Of a stretch of DNA of 64,000 nucleotides, positions 1,843 to 63,180 are shown in pieces. The position numbers were made by a program, and so were the translations under genes. Numbering within the stretch: the stretch's first letter is position 1; every line of letters begins with the position of its first letter. The notes under the pieces were generated by a model, which did no database searches, was not told the DNA's origin, and saw nothing but the letters and a program-made list of their open reading frames with translations. The stretch spans positions 1 to 64,000 of the forward strand of contig PBDA01000023.1 in NCBI GenBank assembly GCA_002718345.1, read 5' to 3'. Source of the stretch: Rhodospirillaceae bacterium (GTDB taxonomy: Bacteria > Pseudomonadota > Gammaproteobacteria > Steroidobacterales > Rariloculaceae).

Positions 1843-1936
1843 TGGCGGAGGTGGATGGGAATCGAACCCACCAGCCGGGGTTAACCGGCTCACTGGTTTT
1901 GAAGACCAGGGGAGTCACCAGACTCCATTCACCTCC
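1843..1936 (-). tRNA. selC: tRNA-Sec (anticodon UCA)
   Basis: The minus strand folds into a 94-nt selenocysteine tRNA. The acceptor arm pairs GGAGGTG with CACCTCC, with an A/C opposition at the eighth position, followed by G and an encoded CCA. The D stem is six pairs (GGAGTC/GACTCC) closed by a four-base loop, a hallmark of bacterial tRNA-Sec. The anticodon loop is CT-TCA-AA on a CTGGT/ACCAG stem. A long variable arm (AGCCGG/CCGGCT) and a T arm with TTCGATT follow. It starts nine bases after the selB stop, so it is probably transcribed with selAB. A T-rich stretch (TATTTTTCT) follows the CCA end. Confidence 0.95.
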
Positions 1937-1945
1937 ATGTTTTAC

Positions 1946-3850: not shown

Positions 3851-5235
3851 CTGACTATCTGGCGAAAAGCTCTAACTACATCATTGGTATCTTCAGATAA
3901 AATTGTTCTTGGATCGATTATAAGTTTCCCTTTATTAACTCTTGCAACCAAGGGTGGATCAGATTCACGCAATATTCGAGCTAACTGACCAGCACCTAAA
4001 TTAGCAAATTCAATGTGTAATACTTTAGTTGGTATCTCAGTCATTGGTAATACACCACCTCCACCATAACTCACATCCGAAACAACTGAACCGGAAAGTC
4101 CTGGAATTTTTTTTAACTGACGTAAAAGATTTCTAGCACGTCGATCAATAATTCTCACATCCTCATTAATCATACGAAGTACGGGCACCCTTTCAGCAGG
4201 ATTATTTGGCGGAATATATAACCGTAAAGTTGCAACTAAAGCAGCAAGTGATAATTTGTCTATACGAAACCCTCTAAGTAATGGATTATTTTTTATTGCA
4301 TCTATGAGCGTAGACCGACCTAAAATAATTCCTGATTGAGGGCCGCCTAAAAGCTTATCGCCACTAAACGTAACAATATCAGCTCCATCAGCTATACTTT
4401 TTTTCACTGACTGCTCAGCAATAGAATCGCTGGCGCACATATCTACTAAAGTGCCACTTCCAAGGTCCTGCATAAAAATTAGTTCATTTTGATGAGAAAG
4501 ATCAGCAAGCTCTCTAGAAGTAGCTTTTTCGCTGAAACCTATAATTTTATAGTTACTTGGATGAACCGAAAGTAGGACACGACTATCACTTGATAAAGCA
4601 CTGGCATAATCAGAAATCCTAGTTTTATTTGTAGTGCCAACTTCCACCATGCGGCATTCACTTTTCTTGATAATATCTGGGATACGGAATGAACCACCGA
4701 TCTCAACCAACTCGCCTCGAGATACAATGACTTCTCGATGTGCTGCTAAAGTTGAGAGAGACAATATAACCGCGGCAGCGCAATTATTTACCACCAAAGC
4801 TGCTTCGGATCCTGTCAATTGACATAGCAAAGACTCCACATGCCGGTAACGGGAACCCCTTTGACCGCTACTCAAGTCCATCTCAAGATTTGAATAACCT
4901 CGAGCGACACGAGAAATTGCCTCTATTGCTTCTTCAGCAAGCGGAGCTCGGCCAAGATTTGTGTGAATGATAATTCCTGTTGCGTTTATTACTTTACAAA
5001 AACTTGGAAGGCGTCTTCTTAAAATATCAACTCGTATAAGTGCCGCATACTGTGGACTATAAAAATCTGGAAGTTCATCTAATCCATTATCAATCCCATC
5101 GCGCACCTCAATTAGATGCTGACGCATAACCTCCGATACCTCATTTCGCGAAAATTCTGCGATTAAAGTAGTACCTATCTCCGAGTTCAGCCATTTGTCA
5201 ATGGCGGGGAGTCGCTTGAATAGCTCTTCAGACAT
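3847..5235 (-). CDS. selA: L-seryl-tRNA(Sec) selenium transferase SelA
   Basis: SelA is a PLP enzyme that converts seryl-tRNA(Sec) to selenocysteinyl-tRNA(Sec) with selenophosphate. The 462-residue product has the expected length. The PLP lysine is Lys294 in SGDKLLGGPQSG, matching the family position, and the segment INATGIIIHTNLGRAPL near residue 83 is typical of bacterial SelA. It ends in TGA that overlaps the selB start. A neighbouring selD (selenophosphate synthase) is not present in the window, so that gene must lie elsewhere if the pathway works. The ribosome-binding site before the ATG is weak. Confidence 0.96.
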   Translation of the reverse strand: MSEELFKRLPAIDKWLNSEIGTTLIAEFSRNEVSEVMRQHLIEVRDGIDNGLDELPDFYSPQYAALIRVDILRRRLPSFCKVINATGIIIHTNLGRAPLAEEAIEAISRVARGYSNLEMDLSSGQRGSRYRHVESLLCQLTGSEAALVVNNCAAAVILSLSTLAAHREVIVSRGELVEIGGSFRIPDIIKKSECRMVEVGTTNKTRISDYASALSSDSRVLLSVHPSNYKIIGFSEKATSRELADLSHQNELIFMQDLGSGTLVDMCASDSIAEQSVKKSIADGADIVTFSGDKLLGGPQSGIILGRSTLIDAIKNNPLLRGFRIDKLSLAALVATLRLYIPPNNPAERVPVLRMINEDVRIIDRRARNLLRQLKKIPGLSGSVVSDVSYGGGGVLPMTEIPTKVLHIEFANLGAGQLARILRESDPPLVARVNKGKLIIDPRTILSEDTNDVVRAFRQIVR

Positions 5236-28081: not shown

Positions 28082-30490
28082 ATGACTTACTCTTTGCTTG
28101 GAAAAAATTTTATTCCACCTGATATTGAAGCAAAGGTTACTGGTAGAGCGAAGTATGCAGAAGACTTTCGTGTAGAAGGGATGGTCTTCTGTCGTCTTTT
28201 TCTGAGTCCAGTTCCCCATGGGTTGGTGAAAAATATCGAGGCTAGCGAAGCCCTGGCCATGGAAGGCGTGATCGGGATACTGACTGCTGATGAGGTTCCG
28301 TCACATCCGGCAAACCCAATACTCACTAATGAACCAAAATACATTGGTGAACCAATTTTAGCTGTTGCTGCTGTGGATGAAACTACAGCAATGGATGCAT
28401 TAGATAAAATTCAAGTAGAAATAGAACCTCTGGATTTTGTCGTAGATCCCCTTGATAGTCTCTATCCGGGAGGACCAAATGCCCGAACTGAAGGAAATGC
28501 GGCTGTTAGAGGAACTCCAACAGAAGTTATTAAATGGACGGCCCAAGATTTTGCAGCCGTGCCAGATGACGTTCTTCCAATGGATGGTCAAGCGTTTGAA
28601 GAATGGTCCTTTGGAGACTTAGAAAATGCTTTTGATAATGCTGCCTTGGTGCTGGATGAGACCTTTGTTACTGAGGCAAATTCCCATCACTCTATGGAAC
28701 CGCGCAGTAATATGGCTTATTGGGAAAATGGACGCTGCCATATCTTTGGCTCAGGCCAAAGTCAAACATTTAATATGCCAGTTTTGTCCCGTCTTATTAA
28801 CGAACCAATTGAAAACATTCGCTATGTGGGAGAATTTTGCGGAGGAGGCTTTGGCTCAAAAGGAACCTCCTACCCCGTGCAAGCAATTCCAGCCTTAATG
28901 TCGAAAAAGATTGGGCGTCCAGTAATGATGCGTATCAGTCGTGCGGAAGAATATTACTTAGGTGTCGCGCGCGGGGGTTTTCAAGGAAGGGCCAGACTAG
29001 CCTTCCGTGAAGATGGCCGCATTACTGCAGCAGACATTTACATAGTGCAAGACGCTGGAGCAACACCAGGATTTTGGGATTTTCGAGCTGCAGCTGAATA
29101 CGTAGCTGTCACATATACTCCTCTCTCCATGCGTATGAGCGCTGTCCCTATTCATACAAATACCGTCCCTCGTGGCCCCCAAAGAGGGCCAGGCCAAAAC
29201 CAGATGGCTAATGCAATGGAACCACTTATTGATAAAGCGGCCAACCAATTATCGATTAGCAAATTAGATATCAGAAAAATCAATGCTCCAACTCACGATT
29301 CATTAGTAGCTGAGGAACACGGCAATCTTGTGCCGCTCACAAGTGCATTTATGAATGAAGCCTTGGAAAGAGGCGCTGAAATGTTCAACTGGACAGAAAG
29401 GAGCGCTAGAAGCGGACAAAAAAACGGCTCGAAGGTTACAGGAGTTGCAATAGGACAAGGTTTTCACCCTGCAAGCTTCTCCGGATTTGACGGACTAATC
29501 CGACTAAGTCCAGAAGGTAAACTACACATTCATACTGGCGTGGGCAATCTAGGTACTTATTCCCATACGGGGACCTCGCGTGTTGCTGCTGAGGTTTTAA
29601 AATGCAATTGGGAAAACTGTCTTGTCATACGTGGCGACTCTAACCTTCATCTTCCATGGAATTCTGGCCAGTTTGGTAGTAATACAAGTGGAACTATAAC
29701 TAGAACAGCTTATGCTGCTGCCATTAATGCCATTGAGAAATTAAAAGAAATTGCTGCTATAGATATGGGTGGAACTGTTGACGATTATGATATCGGAGAT
29801 GAAAGAGTATTTCGAAAAAATGATTCATCGTTAAATATGACCTATGCGGCTGCGGCACAACGAGCTATTGAACTTGGTGGAAAGTTTAGTGGAGAAGAAA
29901 TGCCTGATGACATCCACCCAATAACCAAATCAGCAGTGCGTGGGCTTGCAGGTACAGGATTGATAGGTGTTGCCAAAGATAATCTTGATCCGGGCGGACT
30001 AACACCAGCACTAGTAGCAGGCTTTATGGAAATAGAGCTAGACATTGAGACCGGGAAATTGGACATTATCGAATACGTCGCTGTAGCAGATTGTGGAACG
30101 GTTGTTCACCCACAGGGTTTAGCAACGCAGATCAAAAGTGGTGCAGTAATGGGTATAGGCCATGCCACTCTCGAACGAATAATCTACGACCCACAAACAG
30201 GCCTACCAGGCAATATTGGTTTTTATCAGGCTAAGCCACCTTCTTATCTTGACGTTCCATCTAATATGCAAGTGGCCGCATTGGATGAACCTGACTTTGT
30301 TAACCCAGTAGGTGTAAAAGGGGTGGGAGAACCTGTGATGGGAGCTGCCTCTGCAGCTTTAGTATGCGCAATTTCAGATGCGCTTGGTGGGCATTACTTT
30401 AACCGCACACCAATTGTTAGAGACATGATCGTTAATGCTTCGGCAGGGCAAGCACAAAGTCATAAACCACTTCAAATAAATACAGCGTAA
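28082..30490 (+). CDS. Xanthine-dehydrogenase-family molybdopterin-binding subunit (orphan)
   Basis: The 802-residue protein is a full-length large subunit of the molybdenum hydroxylase family. It has KVTGRAKYAEDF at the start, GEFCGGGFGSKG near residue 257 (molybdopterin dithiolene contacts), PRGPQRGPGQNQMANAMEP near 360, and GVKGVGEPVMGAAS near 745 with the catalytic Glu in GEP. Such enzymes hydroxylate N-heterocycles or oxidise aldehydes or CO with water as oxygen source. The usual FAD and 2Fe-2S partner genes are not next to it and not elsewhere in the window. GGAGGG precedes the ATG. Confidence 0.93.
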   Translation: MTYSLLGKNFIPPDIEAKVTGRAKYAEDFRVEGMVFCRLFLSPVPHGLVKNIEASEALAMEGVIGILTADEVPSHPANPILTNEPKYIGEPILAVAAVDETTAMDALDKIQVEIEPLDFVVDPLDSLYPGGPNARTEGNAAVRGTPTEVIKWTAQDFAAVPDDVLPMDGQAFEEWSFGDLENAFDNAALVLDETFVTEANSHHSMEPRSNMAYWENGRCHIFGSGQSQTFNMPVLSRLINEPIENIRYVGEFCGGGFGSKGTSYPVQAIPALMSKKIGRPVMMRISRAEEYYLGVARGGFQGRARLAFREDGRITAADIYIVQDAGATPGFWDFRAAAEYVAVTYTPLSMRMSAVPIHTNTVPRGPQRGPGQNQMANAMEPLIDKAANQLSISKLDIRKINAPTHDSLVAEEHGNLVPLTSAFMNEALERGAEMFNWTERSARSGQKNGSKVTGVAIGQGFHPASFSGFDGLIRLSPEGKLHIHTGVGNLGTYSHTGTSRVAAEVLKCNWENCLVIRGDSNLHLPWNSGQFGSNTSGTITRTAYAAAINAIEKLKEIAAIDMGGTVDDYDIGDERVFRKNDSSLNMTYAAAAQRAIELGGKFSGEEMPDDIHPITKSAVRGLAGTGLIGVAKDNLDPGGLTPALVAGFMEIELDIETGKLDIIEYVAVADCGTVVHPQGLATQIKSGAVMGIGHATLERIIYDPQTGLPGNIGFYQAKPPSYLDVPSNMQVAALDEPDFVNPVGVKGVGEPVMGAASAALVCAISDALGGHYFNRTPIVRDMIVNASAGQAQSHKPLQINTA

Positions 30491-30529: not shown

Positions 30530-31654
30530 TTAGTCTAAATAGAATGCCTCTGGGTCAATTGGCAGCTCAACTTCTTCGCCAAGCCTGGCAGATCGGTCCA
30601 TTGCCATGGTCATTAGCAAGTTTCTATGTCCGTCAGCGGCAGAAGCATGCGGTGATTCAATACCCAACATGATTCTAGTAAACCAAGAGATTGTTTCCTC
30701 CTTCATGGGACCCCATAGCTGGTCATTCCAAATATCGCCAGGAGGATAGCTAGTCAAAAAGTCTACATGGCGTTCCATAGGAGGCTCAAAACCTCGGGTT
30801 CTATAACCAGCAGGAAGAGATTCCTCTGTTGCTAACACAAGATCTCGGTGGGTATCTTCTACGTCTATAACACCCTTAGTACCAACAATACCAATCTCAA
30901 TTCCATAAACAGCACCTGGCCAAACAACTGGTAATGCCCAACTTATATTCATTGAAAAAATAGTTCCATCTTCCATGGTAAAGACCCCGAATGTAGAGTC
31001 CTTTGTGCCAAGCGAACCAAGCACCTTATCTGTAGAACGCGCATATACAGAGACTGGCACCTTCCCTTCCATTAACCACATAGACATATCTAAACTGTGT
31101 GTCCCAGATACAACCATTGGAGTGAGATTGTTTCTTTCAGTTGTTTTTTCAAGTGTCGCTATAGGCACCATACGATTCATTAAAGCGCGAGTTACAACTG
31201 AATGTACATCACCAATCTGGCCTTCATTTAAGCGTTCTTTAATAGTTAAAAAACGTCTACGAAAACGTTGTGTATAGGCAACGCATGCATCTACCTCTTT
31301 TTCATTAATTGCATTAAGTATCTGTGCCGATTCACGAGGATCGGTTGCAAGTGGCTTCTCTATAAATAGTTTGTGTCCACGGTCCACAGCCATAAGCGCA
31401 GGTGCTGTATGGCGATTCTCATCAGTAAGTACCATTACAGCATTTACTTCTGGTCGATCCAGCAATTCCTCAAAAGATTCAGTAAAAAAATCTGCTTTTG
31501 TATCATCGGCCAGTTGTTTGCCAACTTCAGGTTTTTCGTCACAAAGACCTAGCCATTCAACGCCAGGGAACTGTCGTGCAAATTTAGCGCGGATTCGCCC
31601 GATTGTGCCACAACCGATAATTGCGAGACCTATATTGTCCATCTTTTCAGTCAT
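30530..31654 (-). CDS. Gfo/Idh/MocA-family oxidoreductase linked to TctBA
   Basis: A 374-residue NAD(P)-dependent oxidoreductase. MTEKMDNIGLAIIGCGTIG at the start is the Rossmann opening and FIEKPLATDP near residue 97 is the family EKP motif with the catalytic Lys. Members oxidise sugars, inositols and sugar acids. The start at 31654 is preferred: CAGGAAA lies upstream and it overlaps the TctA stop by eight bases, which couples the two genes. A longer reading from 31714 lacks support. Likely acts on the compound imported by the TctAB permease. Confidence 0.92.
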   Translation of the reverse strand: MTEKMDNIGLAIIGCGTIGRIRAKFARQFPGVEWLGLCDEKPEVGKQLADDTKADFFTESFEELLDRPEVNAVMVLTDENRHTAPALMAVDRGHKLFIEKPLATDPRESAQILNAINEKEVDACVAYTQRFRRRFLTIKERLNEGQIGDVHSVVTRALMNRMVPIATLEKTTERNNLTPMVVSGTHSLDMSMWLMEGKVPVSVYARSTDKVLGSLGTKDSTFGVFTMEDGTIFSMNISWALPVVWPGAVYGIEIGIVGTKGVIDVEDTHRDLVLATEESLPAGYRTRGFEPPMERHVDFLTSYPPGDIWNDQLWGPMKEETISWFTRIMLGIESPHASAADGHRNLLMTMAMDRSARLGEEVELPIDPEAFYLD

Positions 31655-33155
31655 TGATAATTTCCTGTGGCTTCCCTCGCCTAAAGATACCGTCATAAAA
31701 AGTGTAAATAACAATCAATAGTAAGATCGTTCCAAGTTTGCGATCCCATAAAACATTGAAAAAACCACTGTCTTCAAAAACTAGCAATGCCCGCCTAAGA
31801 TTTTCATCTGCCAACGGTCCTAGAATTACTGCTAAAACAAGCGGCGCCAATGGAAACCCTAATTGATGCAAAACATATCCTAATAGCCCAGCAATTAGCA
31901 TCACATAAACATCAAAAAAACTAAGGTTAACCGCAAAAGAACCAAGGATACAAATGGGAAGAATCAAAGGCATTAATAGCGTTTTTGGCAAACTAAATAA
32001 TTTTACACACGGCTTTATTAGCGCAATTGCCATACCATACATAAAGAAATTGGCAATAATCAGACCGATGTAAATAAAATAAATGAGTCCAGGATTTTCA
32101 ATTTGGATCAATGGTCCAACGACCACATTTTTTAGTTGAAGAGCAGCAAGAATAGCTGCCGCTGCTGCATTTCCAGGTATACCAAGTGCTAGCGTAGGCA
32201 ACATAGAACCTCCAACATTTGCGTTATTAGCCACTTCTGCACATACAATGGCTTCGTAACTACCCTTACCCCATTTCTTTTTTTCTTCTTTTGATGCACG
32301 TCGCCTTCCAACATCATAAGCAAAAAAAGAAGCAACATTTGCACCAGCACCTGGAATCGCCCCAATGATTGTGCCAATGATCCCTGACCTAAAACTTGGC
32401 GCCATATACTTTTTAAAAGCCTGTAAAGATGGAAGAACTCGTCCAACATTTGATGGGATCTTCGGTGGGCTTTTTTGTGGCAGCACGCGCAGTATTTCTG
32501 ATATACCAAATAATCCTATAAGCACCGGTATAAAACCGATCCCATCACTCAAGTAAAAAGAGTCTAGAGTGAATCGGGAAACTCCATGAATAGCATCCAA
32601 ACCAACAAAAGAAATTAATAGCCCGATCCAACCAGAAATCCAACCTTTTATAGGCATATCCATAGAAGACATAGAGCCACAAATTGCAATTCCCCATAAG
32701 GAAAGAAGAAACATTTCCCATGAACGGAACTGCAAAGCGAGAAAAAGTACGGCTGGTATAAGCGCGATCAGCAAAAGTATGCCTACCCAGTTACCCAAAA
32801 AAGATGCGGAAATTGCAGTCCCTAAAGCAAGACCTCCATCGCCACGACGGGCAAGAGCATATCCCTCTATCATGGTTGGTACCGCATCAGGAGTACCAGG
32901 AATATTAACGAGCACGGCAGAGATTGCTCCACCAAACACACAGCCCGTATAGACACCCAGCATAAACATGATAGCTGCGGACTGTGACATGCCTACAGTA
33001 AGACCGATCAATAAAGTCATTGCCATCGTTGTGGAAAGGCCCGGCATCGCACCCCATAGAATCCCTAGAGTTACTCCAGAAAGACAGGTAACCCACAACC
33101 ATGGATTTTGAAGGATAATTAGAAACTGTTCCTGTATTTGCGGCAGTGCTTCCAT
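31647..33155 (-). CDS. Tripartite tricarboxylate transporter permease (TctA)
   Basis: The protein has about 12 membrane segments and family blocks GVYTGCVFGGAISAVLVNIPG near residue 70, split by hydrophobic runs, and GAIPGAGANVASFFAYDVG near residue 260. TctA is the large channel subunit of TTT transporters. ATG 33155 is taken as start; an in-frame TTG one codon upstream is less likely. TctB lies eight bases upstream and a Gfo/Idh gene overlaps the end. No TctC binding-protein gene is adjacent, unlike the second system at 39049-42066. Confidence 0.94.
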   Translation of the reverse strand: MEALPQIQEQFLIILQNPWLWVTCLSGVTLGILWGAMPGLSTTMAMTLLIGLTVGMSQSAAIMFMLGVYTGCVFGGAISAVLVNIPGTPDAVPTMIEGYALARRGDGGLALGTAISASFLGNWVGILLLIALIPAVLFLALQFRSWEMFLLSLWGIAICGSMSSMDMPIKGWISGWIGLLISFVGLDAIHGVSRFTLDSFYLSDGIGFIPVLIGLFGISEILRVLPQKSPPKIPSNVGRVLPSLQAFKKYMAPSFRSGIIGTIIGAIPGAGANVASFFAYDVGRRRASKEEKKKWGKGSYEAIVCAEVANNANVGGSMLPTLALGIPGNAAAAAILAALQLKNVVVGPLIQIENPGLIYFIYIGLIIANFFMYGMAIALIKPCVKLFSLPKTLLMPLILPICILGSFAVNLSFFDVYVMLIAGLLGYVLHQLGFPLAPLVLAVILGPLADENLRRALLVFEDSGFFNVLWDRKLGTILLLIVIYTFYDGIFRRGKPQEIIND

Positions 33156-33163
33156 CAAACAAC

Positions 33164-33754
33164 TCAGAAAGTCTCTGGCATTAGAATGCCAAAACCATAA
33201 CGAAAAATAATTGTAAGAGATTCAACTAACACGGTAGTAATGAGCAAACACTGAACTAAGGATCCTTTCCAAAATATTTTAAGAATATAGGTAACCATTA
33301 TTACTGAGATCACCTCATAACTGCTGATCTGATAATTAAATGGGATAAACGGTATACGAAAATCAATGTTTACGAACGCAACCAACAAAACATAGGCCAC
33401 GATAAGCACAGCAAGCAGCAGTCGTCGTTGTGCTTCTTCAGACCAATGCAAAATAGATGAGCTAATCGATACTTTACCCAGATTAGAAAGCGCTCCAGCT
33501 TGAATTGCTTGCACGGCTAGTATGAAAGCCATCAATAATAATGTAGCTCCTACTATAAATGGTAATAGGCCAGGCGCAGTATAAAGTGAACCTGGAACAC
33601 TGAGACGCAGCGAAAAAAACATAGTTAGCATTGCTAATAACCCCACCAGTGCCGCACCTAGAAGGTTTTTTCCTGGTGATATCATCTCCTCAGGACATTT
33701 AGCACTGCCTGATGGTGTTGTTTCTTCAACAGACATATTTTTTTGTGTTTTCAT
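33164..33754 (-). CDS. Tripartite tricarboxylate transporter small permease (TctB)
   Basis: A 196-residue protein with four to five hydrophobic segments, typical of TctB, which pairs with TctA. A polar N-terminal stretch of about 28 residues precedes the first helix. TctB-family assignment rests on size, membrane pattern, and position directly in front of tctA. The reading could also start at the second Met (33736). It ends in TGA eight bases before the TctA start, so the two are co-transcribed. The TctB-TctA-Gfo/Idh operon is divergent from the M24/dikinase/dehydrogenase operon. Confidence 0.88.
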   Translation of the reverse strand: MKTQKNMSVEETTPSGSAKCPEEMISPGKNLLGAALVGLLAMLTMFFSLRLSVPGSLYTAPGLLPFIVGATLLLMAFILAVQAIQAGALSNLGKVSISSSILHWSEEAQRRLLLAVLIVAYVLLVAFVNIDFRIPFIPFNYQISSYEVISVIMVTYILKIFWKGSLVQCLLITTVLVESLTIIFRYGFGILMPETF

Positions 33755-34128: not shown

Positions 34129-35412
34129 ATGGCGAATTTCGGTACAGTAGGATTAGATTGGCAGCAGCGAGTTAATTGGGACCGGCTGCGGACTTATAGA
34201 CTTGAAAGAGCTAGAGAAAAAATGAAAGCTCATGGACTTGGCGCATTGGTACTTATGTATGATGAAAACGTGCGCTACGTCACAAGCACAATGACACCAG
34301 GATGGAACAGACTAAAACCTGGGCTACGCTATGCGATGCTCTGTGGAGATGATCCACCCGTTATATTTGAGCAAGGTGACATCGGAATGCAAATCGAGAG
34401 ACACTCCCCCTGGATTCCACCTGAAAATGTTCGCTACTCCTATGCATGGATTAAAGGTGCTGCCGGTCCAGCATCAGACCAGCAGGTCAAGAAATTCACA
34501 AACGCCGTGCTTCAAGAAATGAAGAAAAGCAATGTTGCTGGTGAGAAAGTAGGAATTGATTTTGTTGATATCAATATCATAGGTGCTTTCAAAGAAGCAG
34601 GAATTGATTGGACTGATGGTATGAGCCCAATGATGGAAGCCCGTGCTGTTAAAAATGTCGACGAACAGGAATGCTTCCGCATTGTTGGCGCAATTGGAGA
34701 TGCAGCTCATTGGGAAACGATGAAATTCTTACGTCCTGGGCTAACTGAGAATCAAGTCACAGCCCATATCATGGAGTTTTTGTACAACATCCCTGGAATG
34801 GAAGACGTTGAGGATGTCATTGTGTCTTCTGGGCCAAACACCTGGCCAAACTGGAGAAACTTTTCCGACCGAATCATAAAACCGGGTGATATTGTCTTTA
34901 TGGACCTTGCAGCGCTCACATGGAATGGCTATAAATCCTGCTACTACCGAACTTATTGTGTAGGTAAGGAGCCATCACAAAAACAGAAGGATATATATGC
35001 TTTAGCGCTAGAATGGCTCTATAAGGCCATCAATGAGGTAAAGGTCGGCGCAACAACTAAAGATATTGCTTCAGTTTGGCCCTCTGCAAAAGAGACTTGG
35101 GGCTATGAAGAAGAGGATCAGGCTGCAGCTAATCTTTGGGGGCATGGCCTAGGGCTAGCTCAGTATGATCCACCTGTAATATCTCGAATTTGGTCAATTG
35201 ACCATCCGATTGATATTAAGGAGGGAATGACTTTTGCGCTTGAGACACAGCATGGAATCCCATTTGAGTACGGTGTTCGCATAGAAGAAATGCTGATCGT
35301 TCACAAGGATCATACCGAGATAGTTTCAAACTTCCCGGTAGAACAAATTACTGTTGTTGACCCAATCCCAGGCTATGCGGCACCAGACTCACGAGACCGC
35401 AAACTAGTCTAG
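34129..35412 (+). CDS. M24-fold protein (aminopeptidase P/creatinase family) with altered metal site
   Basis: A 427-residue pita-bread-fold protein with creatinase-type N-terminal domain and M24 C-terminal domain. Metal-site positions read Asp259 (FMDLAAL), Cys271 in YKSCYYRT where the second metal Asp is usual, His339 (GHGLGL), Glu372 (FALETQ) and Glu386/387 (RIEEML). Loss of the second Asp argues against an ordinary di-metal peptidase; creatinase is a known metal-free member, and other members such as DMSP lyase or ectoine hydrolase show the fold's range. AGGGGATC precedes the ATG. It leads a tight operon with a dikinase-like protein (11-bp gap) and a dehydrogenase. Confidence 0.87.
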   Translation: MANFGTVGLDWQQRVNWDRLRTYRLERAREKMKAHGLGALVLMYDENVRYVTSTMTPGWNRLKPGLRYAMLCGDDPPVIFEQGDIGMQIERHSPWIPPENVRYSYAWIKGAAGPASDQQVKKFTNAVLQEMKKSNVAGEKVGIDFVDINIIGAFKEAGIDWTDGMSPMMEARAVKNVDEQECFRIVGAIGDAAHWETMKFLRPGLTENQVTAHIMEFLYNIPGMEDVEDVIVSSGPNTWPNWRNFSDRIIKPGDIVFMDLAALTWNGYKSCYYRTYCVGKEPSQKQKDIYALALEWLYKAINEVKVGATTKDIASVWPSAKETWGYEEEDQAAANLWGHGLGLAQYDPPVISRIWSIDHPIDIKEGMTFALETQHGIPFEYGVRIEEMLIVHKDHTEIVSNFPVEQITVVDPIPGYAAPDSRDRKLV

Positions 35413-35423
35413 TTCTGGAATTA

Positions 35424-36719
35424 TTGAGCTCAAAGGATGGTTTAGTGGGAAGGTATATTGTCCCGCTCAGTGATGCTGAGGCGGTTGAAATTGATCGCTT
35501 TGGTCCTAAAGCTGCTAATTTGGCGGCCTTAGGACAAGCTGGTCTTCCTATTGCTAATGGTTTTGCTCTAGATGCCTCCGCATACAAACTTCAGTTAAAA
35601 GCGCTGGGCTTGGAAGAAACAGCGCATAAAGTTTTTAGTACAGAGGGTATGGATGCTAGGCGTAATGCACTTGAAATTAAGCTCGGCTTGCTAGATCAAC
35701 CAATCACTGATGAACTCATAGAGCCTCTTATGGAAGCGTGGGAATCGATAATGTCGAATCCTGATAATCTTGGCGTCGTCAGATCTTCTGCATTGGTTGA
35801 GGATAGGTTTGGATCCAGTTTTGCCGGGCAATTTGAAAGCTTTCTTGGCCTTGAAAATAAAGAGGAGTATCTGACAGCAATACGATCATGTTGGTGTGCA
35901 TTATGGGCAACCCGTGCGCTTCGCTATATGGCAACACATAACCTAGATCCAGCTGAAACCGGTATGGGACTCATTATCCAACCATTAGTTAATGCCAAGA
36001 TTTCTGGTGGTGGGCTCAGTAAGACCTCAGAAGGTGACATGCTAATTAATGCAACCTTAGGGTTAGGATCTGCTATTGCCCAAGGTGAAGTAGTACCGGA
36101 TCGGTATCGGCTCTCGCGCGAAGGCAAGGTATTAGAAATAGCTGCTGGCAGAAAATTCCAAGCAGTAGGCTGTACACATCACGGCACACAGACTGTCAGT
36201 AATAAAAAAGCTACTGAACCATGTCTATCTGAAAACCAGATAAAAGAGCTTGGAGAATACCTACGCACAGCTGAATCTGTAGTTGACGGGCCAGCTGAAA
36301 TCGAATGGTCATTAGATGATGACGGATTTAAGTTGCTTCAAGCTAGGCCACTCCACATAGAAACTGAGCATGCGCCTGATCAGATTTGGGATCAACACCC
36401 ACGACTAAGAGGTCACCCTGCGGGTGTTGGTTGGGGAACTGGTAAAGCTTGTGTAGTGAATTGTGAATGTGAGCTTAGTCGAGTTGGTCCTGGGGATGTC
36501 TTAATAACCAAGGTACCAGGACCTGCGCTTGCTGGGATTCTGCCCCAGGTTTCTGCCGTAATAGCAGAGCTAGGTGGCAGTACATCTCATCTTGCTTCGC
36601 TTGCTAGAGAACGAGGTATTCCAATGGTTTTAGGCGTACTTGATGCCACATCTAATATTCCAGATGGTTCTATCGTTGCAGTAGATGGAGTCGCTGGAAT
36701 CGTCCGCTGGAAACAATAA
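35424..36719 (+). CDS. Truncated PEP-synthase-like dikinase (ATP-grasp plus swivelling His domain)
   Basis: The 431-residue protein has only two of the three PEP-synthase domains. Residues about 15-325 are the PPDK-type ATP-binding domain (GPKAANLAALG, VRSSALVEDRFGSSFAGQ, IEWSLDDDGFKLLQARPL). Residues about 340-431 are the mobile phosphohistidine domain with GGSTSHLASLARERGIP, whose His should carry phosphate. The PEP/pyruvate barrel is absent. Split or acceptor-swapped relatives such as phenylphosphate synthase and rifampicin phosphotransferase suggest phosphorylation of another acceptor. The first possible start is TTG 35424; GTG 35445 with AAGGA upstream is a good alternative. Confidence 0.86.
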   Translation: MSSKDGLVGRYIVPLSDAEAVEIDRFGPKAANLAALGQAGLPIANGFALDASAYKLQLKALGLEETAHKVFSTEGMDARRNALEIKLGLLDQPITDELIEPLMEAWESIMSNPDNLGVVRSSALVEDRFGSSFAGQFESFLGLENKEEYLTAIRSCWCALWATRALRYMATHNLDPAETGMGLIIQPLVNAKISGGGLSKTSEGDMLINATLGLGSAIAQGEVVPDRYRLSREGKVLEIAAGRKFQAVGCTHHGTQTVSNKKATEPCLSENQIKELGEYLRTAESVVDGPAEIEWSLDDDGFKLLQARPLHIETEHAPDQIWDQHPRLRGHPAGVGWGTGKACVVNCECELSRVGPGDVLITKVPGPALAGILPQVSAVIAELGGSTSHLASLARERGIPMVLGVLDATSNIPDGSIVAVDGVAGIVRWKQ

Positions 36720-36736
36720 CTCAGATAGGTATCTAA

Positions 36737-37726
36737 ATGTCAAAAGCTAAAGTTGTCCTCACCGATTATGTTTGGGAATCACTTGATATTGAGGAAGAAA
36801 TTCTTGGAAGCATTGCTAATATCATTCCACTTCAGGTAACGGAGCCAGAAGCTTTTTTTCCTGAAGCAACAGACTGTGAAGCCTTACTAAATACCTATGG
36901 TGGCCCGATAACTGCAGATACCATGGCACGAATGCCAAATTGCAAGATTATCGCCCGATATGGAATAGGCGTTGATACGATAGATTTAGACGCTGCAACT
37001 GAAGCAGGAATCATTGTTACTAATAACCCTACATACTGTGTTGAAGAAGTAGCTGAACACACGTTAGCCATGCTTCTTACATGTGCTCGAAAAATTTCAT
37101 TCTACGATCGCCTTGTACGCAATGGTGAATGGTCTGTGCCTCCAGGAAAGCCAATGTTTCGCTTAGCAGGCTCAACCATTGGCCTAATAGGCTTCGGTAA
37201 TATTGCTCGACGTGTTGCAAAAGGCGCTTCTAGCTTAGATATGCAAGTTCTTTACTCTGACCCATTCGTTGAAGAAGGGCAGTTTGATGCTCCTGGGGAA
37301 AAAGTAGATTTCGATGACGTTCTAAAGAATTCGGATTACCTTTGTATTCATGCGCCGCTCACTTCCGAAACCCGTGGAATGATAGGAGCAGAAGAATTTT
37401 TACAAATGAAAAAAACAGCTTTTGTAATTAATTGCTCTCGTGGTCCAATTATTAATACCGAAGCATTGGTCAATGCACTCGACGACAGACAAATTGGTGG
37501 CTGCGCCTTGGATACAACTGATCCAGAACCTCTACCAATAGATCATACGCTTCAGTCACGCGAAAATGTCATTATTAATCCTCATGTTGCCTGGTATAGC
37601 GAACAAGCAATGGAAGGACTGCAACGAGGTGCGCCTAGTGAGGTACGCCTCGCTCTTGAAGGAAAATGGCCAACTAACGTCGTTAATCAGGCTGTAAAAG
37701 AAAATAATCGTGCCGGCATTAAGTAG
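36737..37726 (+). CDS. D-isomer-specific 2-hydroxyacid dehydrogenase (CtBP type)
   Basis: A 329-residue NAD-dependent dehydrogenase. IIARYGIGVDTIDLDAA near residue 75, the NAD-binding GLIGFGNIARR near 150, the Arg in NCSRGPIINTEA near 233, Glu in TTDPEPLP near 262 and His in NPHVAWYSE near 282 give a complete catalytic set. Members interconvert 2-hydroxy and 2-keto acids, for example glyoxylate/glycolate, hydroxypyruvate/glycerate or phosphoglycerate. It ends the three-gene operon, 17 bases behind the dikinase-like gene, so its substrate is likely the product of the other two enzymes. Confidence 0.92.
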   Translation: MSKAKVVLTDYVWESLDIEEEILGSIANIIPLQVTEPEAFFPEATDCEALLNTYGGPITADTMARMPNCKIIARYGIGVDTIDLDAATEAGIIVTNNPTYCVEEVAEHTLAMLLTCARKISFYDRLVRNGEWSVPPGKPMFRLAGSTIGLIGFGNIARRVAKGASSLDMQVLYSDPFVEEGQFDAPGEKVDFDDVLKNSDYLCIHAPLTSETRGMIGAEEFLQMKKTAFVINCSRGPIINTEALVNALDDRQIGGCALDTTDPEPLPIDHTLQSRENVIINPHVAWYSEQAMEGLQRGAPSEVRLALEGKWPTNVVNQAVKENNRAGIK

Positions 37727-39048: not shown

Positions 39049-40020
39049 TTACTCATTATTGAAGCTGTTAGCCAGCTCTCGATAATCACGAGATTGTTGT
39101 ATTCGGATAGCCTCATAGGCTTTACCATCAAGATATTCAGTGTTCTCTCCTAATTGAGACATCATCTCTTGATAAGCTGTTTCCTGTTGCATTCTAGCAA
39201 ATGCCTTACGCAGAATTATAATTCTTTCCTCCGGAACGCCAATTGGCGCCATAACTACACGATGCATAAAACCCGTTGTTGGCGGGAGACCAATCTCCAC
39301 AAAGGAAGGTACATGCGAAATAAGTCTTTCACTACCAGCTGTTGCTAATATTTTGACTCGCCCAGCCTCTACATCCGCTGCTACTGTCGCAGGGAATGCC
39401 ATAGACATATCTACATCCCCGGCTAGTAAAGCTGCCTTAGCTGGCCCTCCTCCTCGGTAGGGCACCATTCTCAATTGAAGATCTAAATTCTTCATCACTT
39501 GCAAAGCTGGCACAAAAAGAGCTACCCACAAACCACTATGAGACATAGCTACATTACCAGTTGATAACTGTGCATGAGATTCAAGATCAGTCCATGTTTC
39601 ATAAACCCCATCAGCTCTCACAATGATTGCAATTTCTCCGTAATTCACTCTTGCAATGGGGATTAGATCCTTATTTGTGTCATAGACATTGTTACGAAAG
39701 GTAAAACGATGTAGTTGATCCCTGTAATTATCAGTAAACAATAACGTATGCCCATCCGGTTCGGAGCGCACTGCCTCAAGCGTTCCTTTCTGTCCAGCTT
39801 GCCCGGGAACTAGCTTTATTAATATTGGCTGTCCAAGATAATCGTCTAGAAAACTAGTGAAAACTCGAGCATTTAAGTCATTAGACCCACCTGCAGCATA
39901 CGGCACAATTAAAGTGATAGGTTTTGAGGGATAATTTTCTTGTGCTATCGAACTATTAATAAAAAAAACAAGCCCTAAAAAAAAATTTATAGAAATCCTA
40001 ATAATCCACTTAGCGCTCAC
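39049..40020 (-). CDS. TTT transporter substrate-binding protein (TctC/Bug family)
   Basis: With the GTG start at 40020 the product has 323 residues, a signal peptide ending near SIAQ, and the Bug-family opening ENYPSKPITLIVPYAAGGSND. Further family blocks are LVPGQAGQKGT and MVPYRGGGPAKAALLAGDVD. The start is set by the GTGA overlap with the TctA stop at 40017; a reading 43 codons longer has no signal peptide and lies inside tctA. The protein captures a carboxylate or similar ligand in the periplasm for the TctAB permease just upstream. Confidence 0.92.
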   Translation of the reverse strand: MSAKWIIRISINFFLGLVFFINSSIAQENYPSKPITLIVPYAAGGSNDLNARVFTSFLDDYLGQPILIKLVPGQAGQKGTLEAVRSEPDGHTLLFTDNYRDQLHRFTFRNNVYDTNKDLIPIARVNYGEIAIIVRADGVYETWTDLESHAQLSTGNVAMSHSGLWVALFVPALQVMKNLDLQLRMVPYRGGGPAKAALLAGDVDMSMAFPATVAADVEAGRVKILATAGSERLISHVPSFVEIGLPPTTGFMHRVVMAPIGVPEERIIILRKAFARMQQETAYQEMMSQLGENTEYLDGKAYEAIRIQQSRDYRELANSFNNE

Positions 40021-41522
40021 GCCTGCTCCCCTGCGATAGCTTTTTGACGAAACCTGTTCATTCTTGCGCCTAAAGTAACTCCTATAATAGGTGTTGCTAG
40101 CACCACTGCTGTCATCCCTAAACGCTCTACAAAAATAAAACGAAGCCAATCATCACCAGCCAAAGCTAACGTTTGACCAAAGGTATATTCCAATTCACGA
40201 CCAAGTATGAAACCCATAACCATTGGCGCAACATCAAATTTCGCGCTTCGTGCCGCAATACCAATCAAACCGAAACCTATCAGCGTGACAATATCAAAAG
40301 GGTTGCTGCGCGCAAGATAAGTGCCTGCAAAAGCCAGCATAATAGTAACTGGAATTAAAAGTGAACGCTTTATGGTTACAACTTTTGCAAATAACGGAAT
40401 TGTTAAATATCCAATGATCAAGAATAGAATATTTGCAAAAACCATCGCTATTAGAATTGCAAACACTATATCTCCATTTGTCTCCATAAGTGTTGGGCCC
40501 GGACGTAAACCTTGCATCATAAAGGCACCAAGCAGCAATGCAGTTACTGCATCTCCAGGTATTCCTAAAGTTAGCAATGGAACCATAGTAGGGCCATTGA
40601 CCGCATTGTTTGCGGCTTCTGCACCAGCCACACCGTCTAACTCACCTTTTCCAAAACGTTCTGGCGTATCTGATGAGTTTTTAGCAGCAATATATCCCAT
40701 CATAGCGGCTATGGGCTGACCAAGACCCGGAACCAGTCCGATACTTGTGCCTATTGCAGTAGAACGAAAAATAGTTCGGAGACTTCTTCGCAACTCAGAA
40801 AAATTTAAATGATCGCCGACAAACTGAGCAATACGAGAATTGGTTTGATCACCCTCTTTAACAGCTTTAAATATTTCAGGCAAAGCAAACAGACCAATCA
40901 ACATTGGGATCAAATGAAACCCATCATATAGTTGGTTTGTACCAAAGGTATATCTGGCTGCGCCAGAAAAGGGATCCGCACCGATAAAACCGAATAAAAC
41001 TCCCAGACAAAGCATCAACAGGCCTTTTATCACAGGGCCAGTTGAGGTAACAGAAATTATGACCAGACTTAAGAACATTACAGCCGCTATCTCCGGAGGA
41101 CCAAAACCCAAAACTATTGCTGCAACAGGAATAATCATTACAAGGGTAAAGAGGTCACTAAAAAGATCTGAGATTGCTGAAGCATACAACCCCATTTCTA
41201 GCGCCTTCCTAGGCTGTCCTTTTTTAGTCAGTTCATGACCATCAAAGACTGTAGCGATTGATGCTCCTGTACCTGGCATGGAAATCAATATAGCTGGGAC
41301 GCTTCCTCCATAAATACCTCCTTTATAAACGCCGATCAGAAACGGAATACCAATCAATGGATCGCCAACAAGAAAGGATATTGGCACTAGGACAGACATT
41401 CCCATGCTTGTTGTAAAACCAGGCAGTGATCCCATCAACATACCCAGTAATAACCCACCACTTATCCATATAAAGGTATCTATCCGAAGCGCTGCATCCA
41501 AGCCTGCTATAAGAGCTTCCAT
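40017..41522 (-). CDS. Tripartite tricarboxylate transporter permease (TctA), second system
   Basis: A 501-residue, about 12-segment membrane protein. GSLPGFTTSMGMSVLVP near residue 31, GVYKGGIYGGSVPAILISMPG near 64 (broken by glycines) and GLVPGLGQPIAAMMGYIAAK near 255 mark TctA. It follows TctB by seven bases and overlaps TctC by four (GTGA). The set is complete (B-A-C), in contrast to the TctBA pair at 31647-33754, and similarity between the two TctA proteins is moderate. Confidence 0.94.
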   Translation of the reverse strand: MEALIAGLDAALRIDTFIWISGGLLLGMLMGSLPGFTTSMGMSVLVPISFLVGDPLIGIPFLIGVYKGGIYGGSVPAILISMPGTGASIATVFDGHELTKKGQPRKALEMGLYASAISDLFSDLFTLVMIIPVAAIVLGFGPPEIAAVMFLSLVIISVTSTGPVIKGLLMLCLGVLFGFIGADPFSGAARYTFGTNQLYDGFHLIPMLIGLFALPEIFKAVKEGDQTNSRIAQFVGDHLNFSELRRSLRTIFRSTAIGTSIGLVPGLGQPIAAMMGYIAAKNSSDTPERFGKGELDGVAGAEAANNAVNGPTMVPLLTLGIPGDAVTALLLGAFMMQGLRPGPTLMETNGDIVFAILIAMVFANILFLIIGYLTIPLFAKVVTIKRSLLIPVTIMLAFAGTYLARSNPFDIVTLIGFGLIGIAARSAKFDVAPMVMGFILGRELEYTFGQTLALAGDDWLRFIFVERLGMTAVVLATPIIGVTLGARMNRFRQKAIAGEQA

Positions 41523-41529
41523 GGCTAAA

Positions 41530-42066
41530 CTAAAACGCTGGCAACAATCGAATTAATGGGGCAAGAAATTTTTGCACAATATCAACTTCAGGAAGTGCGG
41601 TACGAAGCACATGTGTTACCACAATATAAAAACCTACGGGCATAAAAGCACTAATAACAATGATCTGAATCAGGTTTCTATTCCCAACTAAAAAAGCTGT
41701 ACTCACCATCAAAAAAAACATAGTGGTAATAAAACCTAGGGTGACTAAAAGCAATGCAGATGTAATTGTGATTACTAAAAATACACACTGCCTCCAAAGA
41801 CCTTTAGAGATATTCATAACATTAATTAAACCCATTCGGGAACTTTCAATATTTTTTGAGCGGATTGCACTTAAAAGAAAAGAAAAAGAAACAATAACAG
41901 TACCCATTAATATCAGAATCGGAAAAACTCGAGAATTCATGGCAAGCAGATTGCTATCAAGGGGAATAGGTGGATCAACAATAAATTTGCCACTAAAAAT
42001 CAAAGCGAGAACCGCCAAAATAAAAACGACTAATGTAAATAGAAAATCTGCCTGACTTGGAAGCAC
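41530..42066 (-). CDS. Tripartite tricarboxylate transporter small permease (TctB), second system
   Basis: A 178-residue protein with four to five hydrophobic segments, placed directly in front of tctA. The start is GTG at 42066 with GGAGG four bases upstream, and no in-frame ATG gives a better start. TctB proteins are poorly conserved, so the assignment rests on topology, size and context. The Gfo/Idh gene at 42098 ends 31 bases upstream and is probably in the same transcript. Confidence 0.85.
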   Translation of the reverse strand: MLPSQADFLFTLVVFILAVLALIFSGKFIVDPPIPLDSNLLAMNSRVFPILILMGTVIVSFSFLLSAIRSKNIESSRMGLINVMNISKGLWRQCVFLVITITSALLLVTLGFITTMFFLMVSTAFLVGNRNLIQIIVISAFMPVGFYIVVTHVLRTALPEVDIVQKFLAPLIRLLPAF

Positions 42067-42097: not shown

Positions 42098-43159
42098 TCA
42101 GGCAACGGCAACTTTACTTAAAGAAGGCTCGCTTAAAGGCAAGCTGACAGCTTCATTAAGTTCTGCGGAAATATCTGCAGCCATATAAATCTCCATTACC
42201 CTTCTAGCTTTTTCGGCTGAACACATTTCAGGTCGGTCAAATGCTACTGCCTCAATCCAATGAACAGTTTCATTATGCATTGGGCCTGCAAAAACATGCC
42301 CTACCGGCTCTCCAGGCATAGTAGACATAGGCAACCTGATACCACTTTCCATTGAGTTAAAAATAACATCTCGGTGTGTGTCATCTATTACCAACATTCC
42401 AGTTGTACCGGTAAGTTCAATCCATGTACCGGAATAATTTGGATGCCCCGGTGGCATCGTCCAGCCAGCTCCAATATTTAAAATAACGCCATTATCCATG
42501 GTAATCATTATCCACTGTGCATCTTCAGAGCCTGTTATATCTTTCATCGCACCATAAACGGACTGGGAGTAAACCCTAACTGGTTTGGCTGGTTCCATTA
42601 GCCAAAGTACAAAATCAATATCATGTGTTGCTTCCATCGCTGCTGGAGAAAGCTTAATTCTTCCACTAATTTTTTTGCCCAGACCTCTTGTAAGATGCCG
42701 ACTAACCAACGCACAAACAGGGTCTCCAATAGTTTTTTCCATTAGACTTTTCTTGGCATATGCAAATTTATGATTAAAACGCTGAGAATAACCAATCGCA
42801 AACTTAAGATTTTTATCTTTTTGGATTTTAATTAGTTCATCTGCCTCATCCAAAGTTAAAGCCAAAGGTTTTTCTAAAAAAACATGCTTCCCTGCCAACA
42901 ACGCTTCTTTTGCCATTGTGTAGTGAGTAGTCTCGGGCGTGGCTGAAATAATTATGGTGTCTAAGGAATCATTAGAGATGATTTCCTTATAATTAGTAGT
43001 AGCTGAAGTTGGATTGGTTTCAGACACCACTTCCTTGAGTCGATCAGGGTTAATCTCAGCAATATGTAACTCATCAACAAGCGCGCTCGCAGCGCAGGTA
43101 TTTGCACGGATACCACCACACCATCCAGTCCCAATTATTCCTACCTTAATTTGCTCCAT
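42098..43159 (-). CDS. Gfo/Idh/MocA-family oxidoreductase linked to TctBAC
   Basis: A 353-residue NAD(P)-dependent oxidoreductase. KVGIIGTGWCGGIRANTC at the start is the Rossmann motif and VFLEKPLALTLDEAD near residue 93 contains the family Lys. The C-terminal part has the substrate-domain sheet. It resembles the gene at 30530 in architecture (both have a THDIDFVLWLMEP-like SL/ID-MW-LM block). Position ahead of TctB-A-C suggests it oxidises the imported compound, probably a polyol, sugar or sugar acid. It ends in TGA. Confidence 0.92.
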   Translation of the reverse strand: MEQIKVGIIGTGWCGGIRANTCAASALVDELHIAEINPDRLKEVVSETNPTSATTNYKEIISNDSLDTIIISATPETTHYTMAKEALLAGKHVFLEKPLALTLDEADELIKIQKDKNLKFAIGYSQRFNHKFAYAKKSLMEKTIGDPVCALVSRHLTRGLGKKISGRIKLSPAAMEATHDIDFVLWLMEPAKPVRVYSQSVYGAMKDITGSEDAQWIMITMDNGVILNIGAGWTMPPGHPNYSGTWIELTGTTGMLVIDDTHRDVIFNSMESGIRLPMSTMPGEPVGHVFAGPMHNETVHWIEAVAFDRPEMCSAEKARRVMEIYMAADISAELNEAVSLPLSEPSLSKVAVA

Positions 43160-61057: not shown

Positions 61058-61810
61058 CTAACGCGCAGTCCAACCTCCATCGATCTTTAAACTGGCACCA
61101 GTCATCAATGAAGAATCTGTTGAAGCTAGAAACATGACCGCAGAAACAACTTCCCTAAGCTGACCAATTCTACCCATAGGAATACAGTCCAGTGCCCATT
61201 GCTTGAACTCTTTGTCTTCAAACATTGGTTCTGTCATTGGCGTGTCAATAAAAGTAGGGGCAACACTATTTACTCGAATGCCCTGTGGAGCAAGTTCTAC
61301 TCCCAGTGCTTTAGTAAGACCTTCTACAGCATGCTTTGTCATGCAATATGCAGTTCGGTTCTGCGCTCCAATATGGCCCATTTGAGAAGACATGTTAATT
61401 ATTGAGCCGCCTTTATTAGATCTTGACATCACTTTCACAGCACTTTGTGCTGTAAGAAACAGCGCACGCACATTTAACGCAATCATCTCATCAAGTGTTT
61501 TCTCTTGAAGATCAACAAATGGCTGTGGTGCGTTCATACCTGCATTATTAAAAAGAATGTCTAGGCAATTAAGCTTTTCTACCCTTTCTCTAAAAGAGTT
61601 TTTGCTGATGTCCTCTACCCAGATCTCTATGCCATTCCCTGATTTTTCCGCAAGCAACTTCAAGTCATTTTGACTTCTTGCCACTGCGATAACATGGGCA
61701 CCTGCCTGGACCATCGCTTCTGCACATGCCGCACCAATTCCTCGGCTTGCTCCGGTTATTAAAGCAACACGACCAGATAGATTCCATGTTGTAGTTCTAT
61801 TTTCATTCAT
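61058..61810 (-). CDS. SDR-family oxidoreductase
   Basis: A 250-residue classical SDR with [18 protein letters not shown] (NAD(P) site), [10 protein letters not shown] near 86, catalytic Ser in NMSSQMGH, Tyr-x-x-x-Lys as YCMTK near 152 and the end [10 protein letters not shown] strong AAGGAG precedes the ATG. It is divergent from the HisD-family gene at 61903 across 92 bp, suggesting shared control. Substrates could be a diol or hydroxy acid, but this is not decided. Confidence 0.93.
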
Positions 61811-61902
61811 TTGGTATCTCCTTCAATCAACATAGAAAACAGGATTGCAGTACAAGTCAACATTACCTAGCATGTGTTTGCCTCAGAACTTGGAGAACAA
61901 AC

Positions 61903-63180
61903 ATGGCGCGTTATCTTAAAAAGGGCAAGCCCCCTAATGAAATTGCCTTGGAAGATGCAAAAATTCGTCAAGCTGTAGAGAGCATCCTGCAAGAAATTGG
62001 TGCTAGAGGGGATAATGCTCTTAGAAATTTTTCTCAAAAATTTGACAAATGGTCCCCGAAATCATTTCGTCTGACTGAACAGGATATTGCCGCTTGTTAC
62101 CAAGAACTACCAAAACAGGTTATTGAAGATATTAAATTTGCACAGACTCAGATCAGAAACTTTGCCCAAGCACAAAAAGATGCATTACTCAATGTAGAGA
62201 TAGAAACCCTTCCAGGAGTAGTTCTTGGTCATAGGAATATTCCTGTTAACAGTGTTGGATGCTATGTCCCAGGCGGAAAATACCCTATGGTTGCATCAGC
62301 ACATATGAGCGTTGTGACTGCCAAGGTTGCTGGTGTAAAGCGGATAATTGCAGCAGCACCACCTCATAAAGGTAAACCAAGCGCGGCTATTGTTACTGCC
62401 ATGTCTCTTGCAGGTGCTAATGAAATCTATTGTTTAGGTGGTGTACAGGCCGTTGCAGCCATGGCCCTTGGCACACAAACCATTGACTCAGTTGACATGA
62501 TTGTTGGACCCGGAAATGCGTATGTCGCCGAAGCAAAAAGACAACTTTTTGGACGTGTAGGGATTGACCTTTTGGCTGGACCAACTGAAACCTTAATTAT
62601 TGCCGATGAAAGCGTGGATGGAGAATTATGTGCTACTGACCTCTTAGGGCAAGCGGAACATGGTCCAACATCACCTGCTGTACTATTGACGGATTCCGAA
62701 CAACTTGCCAAGGACACTTTAAAAGAGATTGACAAACAACTTGAAATACTTCCGACAGCAGAGATTGCTGGTGCTGCTTGGCGTGACTACGGCCAAGCGA
62801 TAGTTTGTGATAGCTTGGAAGAAATGATCAAAATTGCTGATGAAATCGCCTCAGAACATGTACAGGTCATGACCAAGGACCCAGACTACTTTTTAAAAAA
62901 TATGACTAATTATGGTGCATTGTTTTTAGGACCCGAAACCAACGTTTCTTATGGTGATAAGGTGATTGGCACTAACCACACACTACCCACAAAAAAAGCT
63001 GCTCGCTACACAGGAGGTTTATGGGTTGGCAAATTTATTAAAACCTGCACCTATCAAAAAATATCTGAAGAAGCTTCACTTCATATTGGCGAGTATTGCT
63101 CGCGGCTTTGCGACTTAGAAGGTTTCATGGGTCACAAGGAGCAAGCAGATATCAGAGTACGTAGATATGGAACCTCCTAA
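61903..63180 (+). CDS. Histidinol-dehydrogenase-family enzyme (HpsN-like or HisD paralogue)
   Basis: A 425-residue NAD-dependent enzyme of the HisD family. [18 protein letters not shown] near residue 122, [14 protein letters not shown] near 205, LLGQAEHG with zinc ligands Gln and His, ASEHVQV with the catalytic Glu-His, [13 protein letters not shown] with the zinc Asp, and GFMGHKEQ with the last zinc His are all present. HisD makes histidine from histidinol, but no other his gene is here; HisD-like sulfopropanediol dehydrogenase (HpsN) is an alternative. GGAG precedes the ATG. The divergent SDR at 61058 may act in the same pathway. Confidence 0.9.

Follow-up and report, generated by a model that had tools for sequence, protein, structure and literature searches.

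In the dikinases HpeHI, PpsAB and RPH, a swivel-domain histidine receives phosphate from ATP and hands it on to an acceptor in a separate domain (PMC12167813, PMC4844700). The metabolic dikinases described in these two reports have a dedicated acceptor domain, and small-molecule dikinases start other catabolic pathways (PMC12167813). VadK (Rv1127c) of M. tuberculosis autophosphorylates at a histidine and interacts with enzymes of the methylcitrate cycle (PMC13400623). The DMSP lyase DddP has conserved M24 metal ligands (PMC4108388). Here we compare these systems with a three-gene locus in a 64,000-nt stretch of DNA (hereafter the window) that encodes an M24-fold protein, a short dikinase and a 2-hydroxyacid dehydrogenase.

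The three genes lie in series on the forward strand. The first encodes a 427-aa M24/creatinase-fold protein (34129..35412; PF00557, 1.3e-37, with PF01321), the second a two-domain dikinase core of ATP-grasp and swivel phosphohistidine domains (35424..36719; PF01326, 8.9e-54, and PF00391, 6.2e-17), and the third a CtBP/PGDH-like NAD-dependent D-2-hydroxyacid dehydrogenase (36737..37726; PF02826, 4.2e-56). The initial annotation had proposed that they form one operon, and both the open reading frames and the recurrence of the linkage in relatives bear this out. It had also given the gap between the first two genes as 11 bp, which holds if the dikinase begins at TTG 35424 but becomes 32 bp if it begins at GTG 35445. 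In the alignment, conservation among relatives starts at about residue 8-12 of the TTG-start version, and an AAGGA-like motif lies 5' of the GTG; the gap may therefore be 32 bp, with GTG 35445 the more likely start as judged from sequence. A gap of 32 bp still fits an operon, and a consensus scan found no terminator-like sites in the gaps between the three genes. We conclude that the three genes are a real operon, one that recurs in many unrelated bacteria.

The dikinase comprises a PPDK_N domain (residues 25-321) and a PEP-utilizers mobile domain (356-425), and its chain stops after the swivel domain. The PEP-utilizers_C barrel (PF02896) gave no match in this 431-aa protein, in agreement with its original description as PEP-synthase-like without the PEP barrel. 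The residues of its two domains are intact: the ATP-grasp domain carries the PPDK_N signature of PEP synthase, the catalytic phosphohistidine domain has an invariant GGSTSH389 motif, and K29, R120, E294, Q306, R308 and H389 are invariant in 31 homologues that are 56-90% identical to the window protein. We take the roles of these six residues to be those established for PEP synthase and RPH. A structural search with the AF2 model (pLDDT 84) returned RPH and PEP synthase as best matches, with HpeI also among the matches. The RPH alignment spans ~850 columns and skips the middle RIF-binding domain; the similarity of the dikinase to RPH and PEP synthase is confined to their ATP-grasp and swivel parts. 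Along its full length it aligns with the N-terminal half of PEP synthase (PpsA; E = 1.6e-65 to 3.6e-68), and what it lacks relative to that enzyme is the C-terminal PEP/pyruvate-binding barrel. The best NCBIfam matches were likewise PEP synthase (222-230 bits) and RPH. Models of pyruvate phosphate dikinase scored 18-33 bits, over the swivel domain only (TIGR01828, 18; PRK05878, 33). By profile score, rather than by a tree, the short dikinase belongs to the PEP-synthase/RPH branch.

A complete PEP synthase is encoded on another contig of the same genome; therefore, the short dikinase is not the cell's PEP synthase. A free-standing PEP barrel as acceptor was considered and set aside, as the assembly, estimated to be 86% complete, held no PF02896 barrel besides that of the complete enzyme. 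The presence of an intact PEP synthase elsewhere could free a second copy to degenerate, and the short protein might on that account be a decayed PEP synthase, missing its C-terminus and lying beside its neighbours by chance. Against this, none of the catalytic residues varies among homologues that diverge to 56% identity, and several phyla share this architecture together with the same neighbour. Conservation and linkage refute decay, which we regard as vanishingly improbable.

With HpeHI, CreHI and PpsAB (PMC12167813) and with RPH (PMC4844700) the short dikinase shares its ATP-grasp and swivel phosphohistidine domains, and with the first three it also shares a catabolic setting. In HpeHI, CreHI and PpsAB one polypeptide carries the ATP-grasp domain and another the swivel domain with the acceptor part; here ATP-grasp and swivel are fused in one chain. 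The protein lacks a RIF-binding or phenol-binding domain, and its constant partner is the M24 protein, whereas two-component dikinases have an HpeH-type component. In consisting of exactly an ATP-grasp and a phosphohistidine domain, with no pyruvate/PEP-binding domain, it resembles VadK (PMC13400623). VadK derives from pyruvate phosphate dikinase, whereas the short dikinase is nearer to PEP synthase and RPH by profile score; the passages of the VadK report that were consulted describe no M24 partner. By these defining features, the short dikinase is neither HpeHI nor VadK.

The likeness to VadK nevertheless provides a rival account, in which the protein would be an ATP-sensing phosphohistidine kinase that modulates the M24 protein or another pathway enzyme and does not phosphorylate a metabolite. 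The two-domain architecture is identical to that of the M. tuberculosis protein, and by analogy with VadK such an architecture can be regulatory (PMC13400623), which counts against a catabolic role. However, the profiles do not identify a VadK orthologue (PEP synthase, 230 bits, against 18-33 for pyruvate phosphate dikinase), and strict tracking of one catabolic gene across phyla would be unexpected for a regulator. We consider a regulatory role quite improbable.

The M24 protein has Creatinase_N and Peptidase_M24 domains. Its AF2 model (pLDDT 86; three plasmid-record sequences were left out of the structure-prediction input alignment) matched DddP DMSP lyases best in the PDB, as the top four matches, followed by prolidases, ectoine hydrolase and creatinase. 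In the prolidase alignment, the sequence SCYYRT stands opposite the canonical SDxTRT; the position of the second Asp ligand is therefore occupied by C271. Thus, where M24 metallopeptidases have an Asp-Asp-His-Glu-Glu dinuclear site, this protein has Asp-Cys-His-Glu-Glu, and D259, C271, H339, E372 and E386 are invariant in the 32-35 M24 homologues aligned. The same five residues are kept both in the dikinase-linked orthologues and in those aligned homologues, from other bacteria and a haloarchaeon, that have no such linkage. The initial annotation had called the metal site broken; because the Cys is retained in linked and unlinked proteins alike, the putative site is better described, from these alignments, as altered, a Cys-type site that marks a wide family. 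The orthologues, drawn from several phyla, are at least 72% identical among themselves, and the unlinked homologues compared reach at most 42%. Conservation within the operon is highest for the M24 protein, whose median pairwise identity is 82%, against 64% for the dikinase. Public records label M24 proteins of the Cys type as Xaa-Pro peptidases, an annotation that is probably wrong.

We also considered a DMSP lyase identity for the M24 protein. The fold fits, being collinear with that of DddP over ~390 residues (TM ~0.79; residues 16-406 on 50-440). In contrast, sequence identity is 19-23%, the score is 88 bits against a 600-bit NCBIfam cut-off, and Cys271 replaces the second Asp ligand of the M24 site. 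The M24 protein is therefore not DddP. As for chemistry, the C-N bond cleavage first suggested for this protein is one guess only, since DddP, the nearest solved fold, favours a lyase at least equally. The window also encodes SelA, SelB and tRNA-Sec. Selenocysteine at the position of Cys271 was considered for homologues flagged with an in-frame stop and was rejected, as those that were aligned had no stop at position 271.

To place the operon in a wider context, the dikinase alignment was scanned against 84,980 species genomes, yielding 205 relatives, and the best 80 of the 205 were fetched and analysed. These 80 came from Beta-, Gamma- and Alphaproteobacteria, Acidobacteriota and SAR324. The initial annotation had looked to neighbourhoods in unrelated genomes for support and had allowed for the three genes being unlinked in relatives; instead, linkage was recurrent, with M24 upstream of the dikinase on the same strand in 72 of the 73 loci (best 80 of 205) whose contig reaches that spot. 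In the one exception, L057, the sequence follows that of its sister L066 as far as the M24 gene ends and then departs from it, close to a contig end. Within the window's own family, M24 orthologues 80-99% identical occur in 14 other genomes, followed by the dikinase wherever the contig continues. A reverse search starting from M24 covered two orders: that of L056, where 300 genomes yielded seven orthologues, and that of L114, where 297 genomes yielded two. All nine adjoin a dikinase; each count includes the known centre genome, and several of the others were already in the dikinase-first set. The M24-dikinase linkage is far from chance and amounts to near-obligate pairing. The dikinase tree intermingles Acidobacteriota with Betaproteobacteria, which suggests horizontal transfer, with binning errors also possible. 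Haloarchaeal plasmids carry homologues of both M24 (37%) and PPDK_N (30%), but an equivalent pair there was considered and rejected: the M24 locus inspected had no dikinase beside it, and the PPDK_N gene inspected is recorded as an ordinary full-length PEP synthase.

Pairing of genes need not mean coupling of enzymes. The M24 protein and the dikinase could catalyse separate steps on free intermediates, with no physical or mechanistic coupling, the acceptor site lying unrecognised elsewhere on the dikinase or on another enzyme. Co-occurrence in an operon is by itself no proof of a complex. Cys-type M24 paralogues also exist without an adjacent dikinase, so the fold can work without one. An M24-dikinase fusion was found in none of the loci (long ORFs proved to be N-terminal over-extensions), and a Zn-alcohol dehydrogenase gene stands between the two in 21 loci, about a quarter; both observations weigh against a joint module. 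Yet characterised metabolic dikinases have an acceptor domain (PMC12167813, PMC4844700), for which 431 residues leave no room, and most loci lack the intervening gene, leaving M24 as the sole near-constant partner. We judge uncoupled action to be rather unlikely.

The third gene product has the 2-Hacid_dh (PF00389) and 2-Hacid_dh_C (PF02826) domains expected of the CtBP type that had been proposed. It combines a Rossmann NAD domain with catalytic residues R235, E264 and H283, which are invariant in the alignment, and its PDB matches were 1wwk, McyI and CtBP. The NAD-binding fold, the Arg/Glu/His catalytic set and an AWYSE motif after the His liken it to the CtBP/PGDH group; against PGDH it scored 231 of 454 bits, and it reached no equivalog cut-off.

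Upstream of the operon and divergent from it, ORFs and Pfam matches confirmed the TctB-TctA-Gfo/Idh set that had been reported. All three genes are on the reverse strand: a TctB-like small transporter subunit beside TctA (33164..33754; PF07331, 1.1e-05, below the Pfam cut-off), which is conserved in family relatives; the large subunit TctA of a tripartite tricarboxylate transporter (31647..33158; PF01970, 4.4e-129), also conserved in relatives; and a Gfo/Idh/MocA oxidoreductase of recurrent cluster c5 (30530..31714; PF01408). In this first transporter TctA is certain, TctB is below cut-off, and TctC is missing beside TctB in the window; TctC directly adjoins TctB in several relatives. The suggested link to a transporter and Gfo/Idh extends to most own-family relatives, where the core is linked to divergent TctC/TctB/TctA and Gfo/Idh genes. 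Downstream, also on the reverse strand, ORFs for TctC, TctA and TctB form a second tripartite tricarboxylate transporter (39049..42066), adjoined by a second, inositol 2-dehydrogenase-like Gfo/Idh oxidoreductase of cluster c7 (42098..43159). A block homologous to this second transporter flanks the core in loci L023 and L026.

Among the 79 core-holding loci from the best 80 of the 205 relatives, a CtBP-type dehydrogenase was present in 59, a second, glyoxylate-reductase-like hydroxyacid dehydrogenase in 40, TctC in 26, Gfo/Idh c5 in 25, Zn-alcohol dehydrogenase in 21, Gfo/Idh c7 in 19 and an FAH hydrolase in 11; these counts are approximate, since genes beyond the core were called mechanically and GC-rich genomes yield spurious antisense ORFs. 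The Zn-alcohol dehydrogenase most resembles scyllo-inosose and threonine dehydrogenases, and the FAH member scored 456 bits against a 500-bit cut-off for 2,4-didehydro-3-deoxy-L-rhamnonate hydrolase. Because the neighbouring genes are of such kinds, we infer that the pathway degrades a hydroxylated carboxylic acid brought into the cell, perhaps one derived from a sugar or cyclitol. A literature search that lacked most subscription journals returned no report of this gene combination and no matching pathway.

Our preferred reading, to which we give only just short of an even chance, is that the genes form a module for breaking down an organic acid, probably a hydroxy acid, that the cell imports, with the dikinase phosphorylating a substrate that the Cys-type M24 protein handles. 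The catabolic nature of the recurrent partners (TctC, Gfo/Idh, 2-hydroxyacid dehydrogenase, Zn-alcohol dehydrogenase, FAH hydrolase) counts in its favour, as does a pairing that spans Proteobacteria, Acidobacteriota and SAR324 and gives the same result when the search starts from M24. Because the dikinase has only the first half of the machine and a near-constant M24 partner, the most economical acceptor would be the substrate of the M24 protein. In the sequence of steps that we infer, His389 of the dikinase would accept the beta-phosphate of ATP, and the dikinase, having no acceptor domain of its own, would pass it to a substrate bound or further processed by the M24 protein, either on that protein or just before binding. 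Phosphorylation would let a hydroxyl leave readily, after which the M24 protein could cleave the activated compound in a DddP-like lyase (elimination) or a hydrolase reaction. The product would be oxidised or reduced by the NAD-dependent CtBP-type dehydrogenase; the Gfo/Idh enzymes may also take part and, elsewhere, the Zn-alcohol dehydrogenase, the second hydroxyacid dehydrogenase and the FAH hydrolase. A more specific version, which we think unlikely, has the M24 protein serve as acceptor subunit in a two-component dikinase of a new kind: after docking onto it, the swivel domain would phosphorylate a substrate held at the metal site, giving an ATP-driven lyase.

The operon points to an undescribed catabolic pathway in soil, groundwater and marine bacteria that are mostly known from metagenome assemblies, and it provides three testable genes. 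It raises the questions of where a dikinase without an acceptor domain sends its phosphate, and why its partner is always a peptidase-fold protein with a Cys at the metal site.

The three-gene core, comprising the M24 protein, the dikinase and the CtBP-type dehydrogenase, is surrounded by a catabolic island of approximately 27 kb (20496-47256). The island carries three Gfo/Idh genes, and TRAP and tripartite tricarboxylate transporters are each represented by two sets. Six gene families of this island (c5, c7, c8, c9, c16 and c21) recurrently adjoin the core in other genomes. A xanthine dehydrogenase-type molybdopterin-binding large subunit is encoded on the plus strand at 28082-30490; no FeS or FAD subunit gene was seen adjoining it, and the gene is retained in close relatives.

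Families c25 and c28 are represented at 61058-63180, ~24 kb from the core, by an SDR gene and a gene resembling histidinol dehydrogenase. Members of both families are found directly downstream of the core in Hyphomicrobiales, together with a PF04199 cyclase of family c16 (loci L091, L112, L114 and L116). In 14 loci, mostly betaproteobacterial (L053, L056, L070, L081 and others), an ORF of cluster c11 is positioned opposite and downstream of the core; it was labelled PEP carboxykinase-like from its sequence rather than by family search.

In the alignment of dikinase homologues, swivel-domain residues 347-350 (approximately 36462-36473 in the window) form an invariant C-E-C-E motif, which was not seen in the rifampin phosphotransferase or PEP synthase sequences aligned. 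Among those of the best 80 of 205 relatives whose contig covers the position, L057 is the sole locus lacking an M24 gene adjoining the dikinase. In the region L057:1-1400, its similarity to L066 stops at the M24 stop codon, close to a contig end; this exception is either a real loss or an assembly chimera.

Genes for tRNA-Sec, SelB and SelA are grouped on the minus strand at 1843-5235, and their presence in the window indicates that the source organism has selenocysteine machinery.
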